From: Isosphaera sp.
Lineage (GTDB): Bacteria; Planctomycetota; Planctomycetia; Gemmatales; Gemmataceae
Direction of reading: 5' to 3'
Length of the DNA stretch: 45,238 bases
Assembly: GCA_013822345.1 (NCBI GenBank)
Contig: PNKH01000063.1
Location: forward strand, 1-45,238
In this document: positions 7,522-41,780 of the stretch, in pieces
Numbering within the stretch: the stretch's first letter is position 1
Layout of the letters: every line of letters begins with the position of its first letter
Notes under the pieces: model-generated
Told to the model about the DNA's origin: nothing
The model's database searches: none
The model's input: only the letters and a program-made list of their open reading frames with translations
Translations under genes and position numbers: made by a program

Positions 7522-7582
7522 GGTGGGGCGGGCATTCCTGCCTGCCCCTGTTGGCCGGGCAGGCAGGAATGCCCGCCCCACC
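7522..7582. repeat. Palindromic repeat, family b, copy 1
   Basis: Perfect inverted repeat with 26-base arms and a 9-base loop. The arm core is GGCATTCCTGCCTGCC. It starts 2 bases after the stop of the first sulfatase. It holds the ATG at 7551 that makes a false longer start for the second sulfatase. The second copy is at 23029-23080. Confidence 0.9.
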
Positions 7583-14257: not shown

Positions 14258-14366
14258 TCCTGGACCGCGGCCGTCCCGGCCGCCGGTACCCATCTCGGGA
14301 CGCCCCGGAGTATCCCCGCAGCCTCCCGAGATGGGTACCGGCGGCCGGGACGGCCGCGGTCCAGGA
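14258..14366. repeat. Palindromic repeat, family a, copy 2 (longest arms)
   Basis: Perfect inverted repeat with 43-base arms and a 23-base loop, the longest in the window. The outer part of each arm is the family core (CCTGGACCGCGGCCGTCCC). The inner 18 or so bases (GGTACCCATCTCGGGA) are not found in the other two copies. It lies 3 bases past the stop of the topoisomerase B gene. Confidence 0.92.
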
Positions 14367-23028: not shown

Positions 23029-23080
23029 GGTGGGGCAGGCATTCCTGCCTGCCGGGGCAGACAAGAATGTCTGCCCCACC
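23029..23080. repeat. Palindromic repeat, family b, copy 2
   Basis: Inverted repeat beginning 7 bases after the thiE stop. The left arm matches copy 1 at 7522-7582 closely (GGCATTCCTGCCTGCC). The right arm carries three transitions, so the arms pair at about 22 of 25 positions. This copy looks partly decayed or recombined. Confidence 0.82.
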
Positions 23081-23752: not shown

Positions 23753-23823
23753 GGGCGAACCGCGACCGTCGGGGAGCGGGTGTCGGGGCGCGACACCCGC
23801 TCCCTGACGGTCGCGGTTCGCCC
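23753..23823. repeat. Palindromic repeat, family d, copy 1
   Basis: Inverted repeat with about 32-base arms (one G-T type mismatch) and a short loop. The arm includes GCGAACCGCGACCGTC and GGAGCGGGTGTC. It lies between the stop at 23719 and the flavin reductase start at 23852. It contains a false in-frame start (23780) for that gene. Other copies are at 35234-35308 and 40305-40372. Confidence 0.92.
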
Positions 23824-35233: not shown

Positions 35234-35308
35234 CCGGGCGAACCGCGACCGTCAGGGAGCGGGTGTCGGCGGGCGGCACCCGCTCCCTGACGGTCGCGGT
35301 TCGCCCGG
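35234..35308. repeat. Palindromic repeat, family d, copy 2
   Basis: Inverted repeat with about 32-base arms. The arm core is GCGAACCGCGACCGTCAGG. It lies between the cytochrome stop (35333) and aspS. An 18-base piece of its right end (GTCGCGGTTCGCCCGGCC) is repeated directly at 35311-35328. Confidence 0.92.
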
Positions 35309-38910: not shown

Positions 38911-39003
38911 GTAGGGTGGGCCGAGCCGGCGCCTCGCCGGCGAGTCCCACCGCGCCTGAGGAGGTGGGACTCGCCGGCGAGGCGCCGGCTCGGCCCACCC
39001 TAC
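38911..39003. repeat. Palindromic repeat, family j, overlapping the M16 stop
   Basis: Perfect inverted repeat with 41-base arms and an 11-base loop. The arm begins GTAGGGTGGGCCGAGCCGG. Read on the minus strand its first bases form the last base of the final Lys codon and the TAG stop of the M16 protease gene (39000-39002). Confidence 0.93.
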
Positions 39004-41780
39004 TTCTTCGGCTTCAGCGGCTTGCCGTCCGGCCCGATCGGGCCGACCGCCACCACCGTCAGCGTCTTCGGGTCGAGGTACTTCTTCGCCACCGCCTGCA
39101 CGTCCGCCGGGGTGACCGCCGCCACCTCCGTCTTGAACTTCTCCAGGAAGTCGAACCCCAGCCCGTACCGCTCCGCCGCGAGCAGCTGCCCGGCCACCGC
39201 CGACGTGGTGGTGAACCGGAACGGCAGCCCGCCGAGCAGGTACTGCTTCGCGTCCTCCACCTCCTCCTTCGTCGGCGGCTCGTCCCGGATCTTCTCGAAC
39301 TCCCGCAGGAACCCGTGCCGGACGTCCAGGAACTTGTCCGGGAAGGTGCCGATGTACCCGGTGAACGTGCCCGGCTGCTTCCCGGCCGAGGTGGTGATCG
39401 TCGCCCGGACGGTGTACGCCAGGCCCTGCCGGTCGCGGAGCGTCGCCGACAGCCGGTCGGTGAACCCCGGGCCGGTCCCGAGGACGTTGTCCAGCACCAG
39501 CAGCTTGTGGTAGTCCGGGTTGTCGCGGGTGATGCCGAGCTGGCCGATGTAGACGTGGACCTGGGCCGCGGTCGGGTCGCTGACCAGCTTCTCGGTCACC
39601 GCCGTCGCCTTCGGCGGGGCCGGCACCTCCGGCCTCGGGGCGTCCGACTTCTTCCAGTCCCTGGTCAGCGCCTCGATCTTCTTCGCCATCTCGTCCGCCT
39701 TGAAGTCCCCGACCACGACGACGGTGGTGAAGTTCGGGGCGAACGCCAGGCCGTGGAACGCCTTGCAGTCGGCCGGGGTCAACTTCTCGACCGTCGCCCG
39801 GGTGCCGAGACTCGACCGGCCGAACGGGTGCTTCCCGTACACCAGGGCGTTGAACGTGTCGGACGCCTTCGTCTGCGGCTGCGTCGCCGCGTCGTCGATG
39901 GCGGCGAGCTGCTGCTCCTTCTTCCGGGCGAACTCGTCGGCCGGGAACGTCGGCCGGGTGAGGCACTCGAACAGCAGCCCGAGGCCGAGGTCGACGTCCG
40001 GGGTGAGGACCTTCAGCGACCCGCCGCCGGACGACAGGTTCAGGCTCCCGCCGGTGTCCTCGATCAGCGCCGCGATCTGCTTGCCGGTGTGCTTGTCCGT
40101 CCCCTCTTCCAGGAGACTACCGGTCAGCGTCGCAACCCCCGCCTTGTCGACCGGCTCCCGCAGGCGCGTGTCGGCCACGTCCACCGCGGCGACGACGACC
40201 GGGAGGCGGTGGTCTTCGAGGAGGATCAGGGTCAGCCCGTTCGGCAGGACGGTGCGCTTGGCGTTGGTGAGGGTGAAGCCCTGGGCTCCGGCGTCCTGCC
40301 GGTCGGCGAACCGCGACCGTGAGGGAGCGGGTGTGAGGCTCGACACCCGCTCCCTCACGGTCGCGGTTCGCCCAGCGCCCCCGCCCTTCTTCTCCTCCGG
40401 CTCCTTGGCGTCCTCCTTCGGGACGCTCCAGACGACGCACGCCTGCCTGCGAGCCAGGCACTGCTTGGCGGCCCGCTGCACGTCCGCCTTCGACACCGCG
40501 GTCAGCCGGGTGAGGTAGTCGGCGAAGAACTTCGCCACGTCGTCCCCGCCGGGGTAGGTGCTGGTCCGGGCGACCGCGTCGGCGAGGCTGTGGACGCTCT
40601 CCCGGGAGAACACGAACCGGGCCAGGAGCTTCTTCCGGGCGCGGGCCAGCTCCTCGTCCGACACCGGCTCGGCGGCCAGCTTCTCCAGTTCCGCGAACAC
40701 CATCTCCTCGGCCTTCTTCCGGTCCTTCCCCTTCAGCAGGTCGAGGCTGACCGCGAACCACCCGGGATACCGGCCGGCGTAGTTCCCGGCGTCCACCTCC
40801 GACGCGACGCGCTCGTCCTCGACCAGCTTGCGGTACAGCCGCGACGTCTTCCCGTCGGCCAGGACGTACTGGACCACGTCCAGGACCGGGTCGTCCGGGG
40901 TGCCGACGGCGACGGTGTTGAACCCCATCAGCATCCGCGGCTGGTCGAACTTCGACGGGAACTCGGTCCGGGTCGGCCCGGCCCGGTCCTTGAAGTAGGT
41001 GGGGACCTTGCGGGCCGGGAGATCGCCCTTGGGGATCGGGCCGAACAGCGTCTTGATCTTCGCGACGGCGGCGTCCGGGTCGAACCCGCCGGCGACGACG
41101 ATCGCGGCGTTGTTCGGGTAGTACCACTTGTCGTAGTACCGCTTGATGACCTCGGCGGTCGCCCCGCGGACGTGCTCCCGCTGGCCGATCACCGGGTGGG
41201 AGTACGGCGAGTCCTTCGGCCAGAGGAGCGCGAGGACGGCCTTGTACTCCAGGTCCCCGGGCCGGTCCTCGCCGCCGTCCAGCTCGGCGATGACCGCCCC
41301 CTTCTCCTGCTCGAACTCGTGCTTCGCGTCGATCCGGATGTTCCGCATCCGGTCGGCCTCGATGTCGAGCGCCTGCTGCCACCGGTCGGCGGCGAAGTCG
41401 AAGTGGTAGACGGTCATGTCCTCGGTGGTGTAGGCGTTGTTCGCCCCGCCGTTCCGCTGGGTGGCCCGGTCGATGTCCCCGGGGAACAGCTTGTCGGTCC
41501 CCTTGAACATCAGGTGCTCGAGGTAGTGGGACAGCCCGGTCTGGTCCTTCTCCTCGTCCGCCGACCCGACCTTGTAGGCGACCATCACCGACACCACCGG
41601 CGACCCCTTGACCGGCAGCAGGTACACCCGCAGCCCGTTGTCCAGGGTGGCGGTGCGGAGATCCTTGAACACCGCCTGGGCGGTCGTCACCAGCCCGGCC
41701 TCGGCGGCCGGGTCGGCGGCGCGGGCGGGCGGGGGGGCGAGGAGCGCGGCGAGTGCGAGCGGGAGTGCGACCCGAGACAT
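39000..41780 (-). CDS. Two-domain M16 family zinc protease, with an in-frame palindromic repeat
   Basis: A 926-residue exported insulinase-type protease. A signal peptide (RVALPLALAALLAPPPARA) is followed by an active M16 half. Its zinc motif HYLEH is at 85-89, and the third ligand is probably Glu166 in GAVIAELDGG. The second half (from about 500) has the same fold, but TGSLLEEGTDKH replaces the zinc motif, so it is structural, as in two-domain M16 proteins. Between the halves, residues about 470-492 (RTATVRERVSSLTPAPSRSR) are coded by a family d palindrome lying in the open frame. The stop codon lies in another palindrome. The ATG at 41780 has AGGAAAGGA upstream; the longer frame to 41951 has no such site. 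It probably degrades peptides in the periplasm. Confidence 0.95.
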   Translation of the reverse strand: MSRVALPLALAALLAPPPARAADPAAEAGLVTTAQAVFKDLRTATLDNGLRVYLLPVKGSPVVSVMVAYKVGSADEEKDQTGLSHYLEHLMFKGTDKLFPGDIDRATQRNGGANNAYTTEDMTVYHFDFAADRWQQALDIEADRMRNIRIDAKHEFEQEKGAVIAELDGGEDRPGDLEYKAVLALLWPKDSPYSHPVIGQREHVRGATAEVIKRYYDKWYYPNNAAIVVAGGFDPDAAVAKIKTLFGPIPKGDLPARKVPTYFKDRAGPTRTEFPSKFDQPRMLMGFNTVAVGTPDDPVLDVVQYVLADGKTSRLYRKLVEDERVASEVDAGNYAGRYPGWFAVSLDLLKGKDRKKAEEMVFAELEKLAAEPVSDEELARARKKLLARFVFSRESVHSLADAVARTSTYPGGDDVAKFFADYLTRLTAVSKADVQRAAKQCLARRQACVVWSVPKEDAKEPEEKKGGGAGRTATVRERVSSLTPAPSRSRFADRQDAGAQGFTLTNAKRTVLPNGLTLILLEDHRLPVVVAAVDVADTRLREPVDKAGVATLTGSLLEEGTDKHTGKQIAALIEDTGGSLNLSSGGGSLKVLTPDVDLGLGLLFECLTRPTFPADEFARKKEQQLAAIDDAATQPQTKASDTFNALVYGKHPFGRSSLGTRATVEKLTPADCKAFHGLAFAPNFTTVVVVGDFKADEMAKKIEALTRDWKKSDAPRPEVPAPPKATAVTEKLVSDPTAAQVHVYIGQLGITRDNPDYHKLLVLDNVLGTGPGFTDRLSATLRDRQGLAYTVRATITTSAGKQPGTFTGYIGTFPDKFLDVRHGFLREFEKIRDEPPTKEEVEDAKQYLLGGLPFRFTTTSAVAGQLLAAERYGLGFDFLEKFKTEVAAVTPADVQAVAKKYLDPKTLTVVAVGPIGPDGKPLKPKK
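40305..40372. repeat. Palindromic repeat, family d, copy 3, inside the M16 coding region
   Basis: Perfect inverted repeat with 30-base arms and an 8-base loop, wholly inside the M16 gene and read without a stop. Compared with copies 1 and 2, both arms changed together (CCGTGAGGG with CCCTCACGG, instead of CCGTCAGGG with CCCTGACGG). Confidence 0.95.

Follow-up and report, generated by a model that had tools for sequence, protein, structure and literature searches.

A dispersed palindrome lying in frame within the linker of a planctomycete M16 protease gene, and differing palindrome families at the same protein loops in related species

The stretch of DNA analysed here, referred to as the window, comprises 45,238 nucleotides of contig PNKH01000063.1 from an Isosphaera sp. 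draft genome (7.47 Mb in 226 contigs, 95.2% complete). On its minus strand at 39000-41780 lies an M16 protease gene of 926 codons plus a stop, the product of which is matched in two stretches each by Peptidase_M16 and Peptidase_M16_C. Within the gene, at 40305-40372, is a palindrome whose left arm (40305-40334) and right arm (40343-40372) pair at 30/30 positions around an 8-nt loop (40335-40342). We obtained an inverted-repeat score of 30 for this element, compared with shuffle maxima of 11.5 (100 shuffles) and 13.5 (60 shuffles), which bears out the perfect 30-base arms of the original prediction, and a score of 13 was reached by 0/518 control windows taken from other parts of the M16 genes of 18 same-genus genomes. 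The coding-sense RNA from 40300 to 40377 folds with an energy of -72.6 kcal/mol (z -11.5), and 0/200 shuffles were as stable.

The reading frame of the M16 gene is open across the whole element, and the proposed in-frame read-through as about 23 residues agrees with this open frame in the DNA, from which translation as residues 470-492, a peptide rich in Arg, is inferred. The two Peptidase_M16 and two Peptidase_M16_C stretches flank these residues, placing the insertion between the M16 halves as had been suggested. In an AlphaFold model (22 sequences) with a mean pLDDT of 85.2 both halves are confident, and residues 457-501 fall under 50 and are predicted to be disordered. A linker is present in 34/34 M16 orthologues scored and is variable; it measures 31-77 aa across 18 same-genus genomes and 48 aa in the window's genome, 8 aa more than the 40 aa of the nearest palindrome-free orthologues. 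Because the shorter linker is native, the element was either added to the linker or replaced part of it. The nearest M16 orthologue is 81% identical, and there was neither an exact nor a near-identical empty M16 site among the genomes searched; the copy flanks and aligned sites inspected did not establish a target-site duplication. The end of the same gene meets another palindromic repeat (38911-39003), which has 41-nt arms and a GTAG end and supplies the M16 stop codon TAG (39000-39002, minus strand); repeat-supplied stop codons have been described for GTAG REPs (PMC3733652).

The M16 element belongs to a repeat family, here called family d, with an element size of about 68-74 bp and a unit of 29 nt. 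We found 238 matches to the family d arm pattern in the window's genome (122 and 116 on the two strands), and a reversed control pattern gave 0 matches. The same pattern occurred eight times in total in 18 other same-genus genomes (six in G015, two in G003, otherwise 0), and the family d sequence is nearly confined to the window's genome. When an exact 14-base pattern was applied to the window and 51 stretches around copies, we counted 61 hairpin pairs, 52 of them head to head and nine tail to tail, together with nine single arms. All three copies in the window end in GGCGAACC/GGTTCGCC, as do, with small variation, the inspected copies elsewhere in the genome. The other two window copies, at 23754-23822 and 35237-35305, are in spacers and neither scored within one coding frame. 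The expectation that the other copies are in spacers is thus accurate for the window but not genome-wide, where 14 other loci were taken as lying in genes. Tail-to-tail pairs (L091, L109, L124, L134) lie in a larger inverted repeat, GGGCCGTT..AACGGCCC, which is exact on both sides in 4/9 tail-to-tail loci; by codon-usage scoring, none of the tail-to-tail loci was flagged as in-gene.

In-gene copies were called with a codon-usage score trained on the stretches fetched around copies. One coding frame on both sides was flagged at 15/69 loci, with the element open in 15/15; skipping or excising the element at the mRNA level would not need such open frames. Three loci were dropped from the in-gene set as N-terminal or tiny ORFs (L111, L123 and L139 at 2467), and copies in PurN, a sortilin-like protein and GltB were added, giving 15 with M16 counted. 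Loci on contigs C1-C26 were taken in hit-list order, and 11/56 of them were in-gene, three of these 11 by coding signal alone; L104, L131 and L135 have a coding signal and no Pfam match. A single family model spans the element above cut-off in HisF (TIGR00735), PurN (TIGR00639), HrpB (TIGR01970) and the TIGR03936 protein, and the best models, below cut-off, span it in a RarA-like ATPase (NF009881) and a carboxyltransferase (TIGR01117). Pfam PALP spans the element in threonine synthase, as does Glu_syn_central in GltB. Of two further copies, one lies between domain matches of a single PKS ORF and the other ahead of the second ABC domain of an ABC protein. Comparison with solved structures puts the HisF insert in a gap separating two well-matched stretches, and PurN shows a 13-residue gap at the insert against 3auf. 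The HisF copy (L101, 3452-3555) contains three family d arms, the extra one in tandem, which gives HisF about 36 additional residues. Five loci were flagged as having the same strand and a different frame on the two sides; in each, the start or end of one of the two ORFs is no more than about 30 nt from the element, the layout of two adjacent genes, and therefore none of the five was counted as a broken gene. Two of them (L102, L118), where the other ORF crosses the element, are less clear. An Rfam search of seven sources at gathering scores returned no matches beyond two in L101, a tRNA and an Acido-Lenti-1 RNA.

The family has a form that suits the M16 reading frame. In the frame used, the codon at 40320-40322 (minus strand) is TCA, where the commoner family form would give the stop codon TGA, and this change is matched on the opposite arm at 40356. 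The common arm form yields TGA in one of the three frames of the second-read arm. Rarer forms lack this TGA and are changed on both arms, with G in 16/238 arms and A in one. Two in-gene copies, those of M16 and PurN, are read in the TGA frame, and each is of the rarer G form, though the numbers are small. One left-arm frame is used by 11/15 in-gene copies (p 0.0018 against one third, again on small numbers); this frame was picked after the fact, so the p value is to be tripled.

We scored six host loops for inverted repeats in same-genus orthologues, calling a loop positive when it scored 13 or more and exceeded all of 60 shuffles; other windows of the same six genes, at a score of 13 or more, served as the control. 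Because the loops were chosen from the window's own genome, counts are given with and without it. Strong palindromes were present in 34/103 orthologous loops with the window's genome and 28/97 without, and 4/1575 control windows reached the threshold, all four in the carboxyltransferase set. By loop, the counts with and without the own genome were 11/18 and 10/17 for M16, 10/14 and 9/13 for RarA, 5/15 and 4/14 for threonine synthase, 5/19 and 4/18 for carboxyltransferase, 2/19 and 1/18 for HisF, and 1/18 and 0/17 for PurN. These counts make M16 and RarA strong shared sites and threonine synthase and carboxyltransferase moderate ones; HisF and PurN are not shared beyond the own genome, so that only some of the host loops are shared sites. 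Loops that were not measurable were left out (PurN of G003, threonine synthase of G004, RarA of G018 and G006), threonine synthase was not found at the E-value used in G018, G007 and G015, nor was RarA in G011, G012 and G017, and G007 contributes only a fragment of the M16 orthologue. The M16 score of G016, 13.5, was counted and is borderline, as it equals the comparison maximum of the 100-shuffle run and exceeds that of the 60-shuffle run. In a wider set of 34 M16 orthologues, 11 clearly exceed shuffles, one of them (L150) outside the 18.

The M16 linkers hold about six palindrome families, told apart by eye: family d in the window's genome (G000), CCCCTCCCCTAAGAAGGGAGGGG in G001 and G015, the GGARYGCGGA type in G003, G013, G010 and the borderline G016, the GGGGGGGTAGGT type in G011 and G008, the GGCGGAAGG type in G005 and the CGCTCGCGGC type in G004. 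Three of the families other than d were searched, and each is dispersed in its own genomes. Arm matches numbered 185 in G001, 49 in G015 and 79 in G004 for CCCCTCCCCTAAGAAGGGAGGGG; 76 in G003, 22 in G013 and 14 in G010 for GGARYGCGGA (overlapping matches included); and 17 in G011, 10 in G006 and nine in G008 for GGGGGGGTAGGT. The original prediction held that the segment would be a native linker if all close orthologues carried it with diverged, non-palindromic DNA; 10/17 other same-genus linkers instead hold palindromes of different sequence and 7/18 linkers have no significant palindrome, and the insertion reading survives.

The reading frame is kept in 33/34 palindrome-bearing loops, the exception being RarA of G010. 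The frameshifted G010 loop (L254) is 172 nt and that of its sister G008 (L250), which is in frame, is 174 nt; the frameshift is possibly a natural gene loss via an in-gene palindrome, or a sequencing error. The RarA loop of G015 is in frame, with one TGA elsewhere in the gene, and the G013 RarA loop (L255) is an in-frame segment of 84 residues (252 nt) that looks like two nested palindrome families.

A protein tree of M16 built without the linker places G010 and G008 as close sisters (branches 0.011 and 0.012, support 0.99), and these carry the GGARYGCGGA and GGGGGGGTAGGT types, respectively. The M16 linker palindromes also differ between G001 and G004, and G011 has a palindrome where G018 has none; in all three pairs the 300-nt flanks share 83-92% identity. 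The sister exchange replaces most of the linker. Near-sister species thus hold different families at the M16 linker, and linkers and loops of core enzymes carry different palindrome families in different species of the genus. At the threonine synthase site, the distance between anchors is 24-27 nt in 7/15 genomes (G008, G010, G013, G012, G006, G017, G001), 39-45 nt and palindrome-free in three others, and 81-99 nt in the five palindrome carriers, with every length divisible by three. The HisF loop is seven residues in 9/19 genomes. None of these short threonine synthase and HisF sites is an exact empty site. The proposed comparison of M16 relatives did not deliver an exact empty site in M16 itself, and short element-free sites came instead from threonine synthase and HisF.

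Palindromes that start with GGCGAACC like family d and have a different stem occur in threonine synthase of G014, G003 and G011 and in the carboxyltransferase of G014. In an alignment of six GGCGAACC copies, two of them family d, 13/29 pairs show changes at both positions, with pairing kept in 98.9% of cells; since the copies were chosen as palindromes, it is their shared ends that are informative and not the pairing. Five Y1_Tnp matches are present in the window's genome, and by eye there are like palindromes on both sides at four of these loci and on one side at one. The palindromes flanking the L068 Y1 gene resemble the family at window positions 14258-14366, the L069 palindromes are like the family found at 7522-7582 and 23029-23080, and L071 has palindromes with the same stem as the GGCGAACC-ended palindrome of G014. 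A family d pair stands beside a Y1 gene at 0/5 Y1 loci of this 95.2% complete genome, and L068 has one weak single family d match with two mismatches in 15. Family d is probably mobilised by a RAYT-like Y1 (HUH) transposase that acts in trans; as the Y1 genes adjoin palindromes of sibling families and none adjoins family d, this mover is one that we infer.

Protein-coding palindromes are known from Rickettsia and Wolbachia, with Rickettsia palindromic elements (RPEs) of 105-146 bp, or about 100-150 bp, and a given gene region can hold different RPE groups from one species to another (PMC2229807, PMC3767692). Like these elements, family d consists of many dispersed palindromic copies that lie in spacers and, in frame, within genes for conserved proteins, so the predicted likeness to Rickettsia palindromic elements holds for behaviour. 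Family d differs from RPEs in its planctomycete host, near-perfect arms, clear element-free orthologous sites and length (about 68 bp here, 68-74 bp in the family), which is below the RPE range. REPs with GTAG or CGTC tags have been described inside the genes of several species, among them Opitutus terrae from the PVC superphylum; in some species REPs lie entirely within ORFs, dimers code for 20-30 residues, and recB of two Xanthomonas species has different REPs at about the same site (PMC3733652). Family d resembles REPs, whose units measure 20-40 bp and mostly come as oppositely oriented pairs, in its 29-nt unit, its predominance of pairs over single arms and its presence in ORFs, but it carries GGCGAACC/GGTTCGCC at its ends rather than a GTAG or CGTC tag, and Gemmata has many more families per site and genus. 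The Y1 genes with like palindromes alongside recall RAYT/REP systems, in which a REP family flanks the Y1 gene that mobilises it, with the difference that none of the five is flanked by family d. Planctomycete TnpA-Y1 classes are mentioned in PMC6006769. Bacterial MITEs such as ERIC and Correia are small non-autonomous repeats that have open frames and fuse with genes (PMC2229807); compared with these, family d is nearly all one hairpin, with a target duplication not established. Searches of open-licence PubMed Central papers turned up no description of palindromes inside Gemmata genes. The kind of element is known; new here are the family itself, its host group, how many families share a site and the differences between near-sisters.

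We consider it highly likely that 40305-40372 is a REP/RPE-like selfish palindrome that entered the M16 linker in frame, as part of a wider process across loops. A small selfish palindromic element of about 68-74 bp would have spread in a Gemmata-type lineage, and one copy would have entered the flexible linker, where, judging from the DNA frame, it would be read through to give about 23 residues of predicted disorder. This copy may persist because the linker tolerates almost any sequence, because the net change keeps the frame, and because it belongs to a subtype in which a base change on both arms does away with the TGA of its reading frame. An ordinary M16 linker that owes its palindromic DNA to chance or base composition would account for the variable, predicted disordered linker found in all 34 scored orthologues, but the exact sequence is repeated more than 200 times as arms in the window's genome, and the 238 arm matches, the differing linkers of orthologues that lack the sequence, and a score of 30 against shuffle maxima of 11.5-13.5 together rule this reading out for practical purposes. 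We regard an assembly or binning artefact as equally improbable: the genome is a draft of 226 contigs, yet the copy is mid-contig with both gene halves continuing in one frame, and the same kind of insert occurs in M16 and RarA of the single-contig genome G008.

Two other readings deserve more weight, though both are unlikely. Each loop could have received one ancient insertion that later diverged or was overwritten by conversion from dispersed copies. For Rickettsia the choice between hotspots and diverged remains of one old insertion is left open, and for RPE-4/6/7 an ancient insertion later diverged or overwritten is preferred (both PMC3767692). Consistent with such a history, 18/18 same-genus M16 linkers are at least 31 aa, those free of palindromes may hold decayed elements, and the sister exchange takes in most of the linker; however, the families within one loop look unrelated in sequence, and the 24-27 nt threonine synthase sites and seven-residue HisF loops mean that no old insert is needed at those loops. 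Slightly less probable still is that the element is useful, either as an mRNA hairpin slowing ribosomes at a domain boundary or as a favoured peptide. The stability of the hairpin (-72.6 kcal/mol), the position of several copies at domain boundaries (M16, ABC, PKS) and the left-arm frame shared by 11/15 in-gene copies (p 0.0018, to be tripled) would fit, but the HisF, PurN, threonine synthase and carboxyltransferase copies are within single domains, many orthologues have no palindrome, and the families differ in sequence. Under the reading that we prefer, repeated insertion of selfish palindromes, elements would survive in permissive loops when they are in frame and free of stops, the different families at the same loops would have arrived by repeated insertion, with a RAYT-like Y1 (HUH) transposase moving them in trans, and exchange at a site would reflect new insertion rather than overwriting.

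A bolder proposal, which we advance tentatively and would not bet on, is that the M16, RarA, threonine synthase and carboxyltransferase loops are standing acceptor sites at which many selfish families arrive and replace each other fast. If true, parts of core proteins would consist of mobile DNA and keep being rewritten by it, and each in-gene copy would add a very stable mRNA hairpin at a domain boundary or loop. One genus that has several such loops, several families, element-free sites and differing near-sisters makes the question of hotspots against old insertions testable by strain comparison. The finding also warns that annotated proteins of the Gemmata group can carry element-derived residues, and it points to a route by which selfish DNA may supply new loops to core enzymes.
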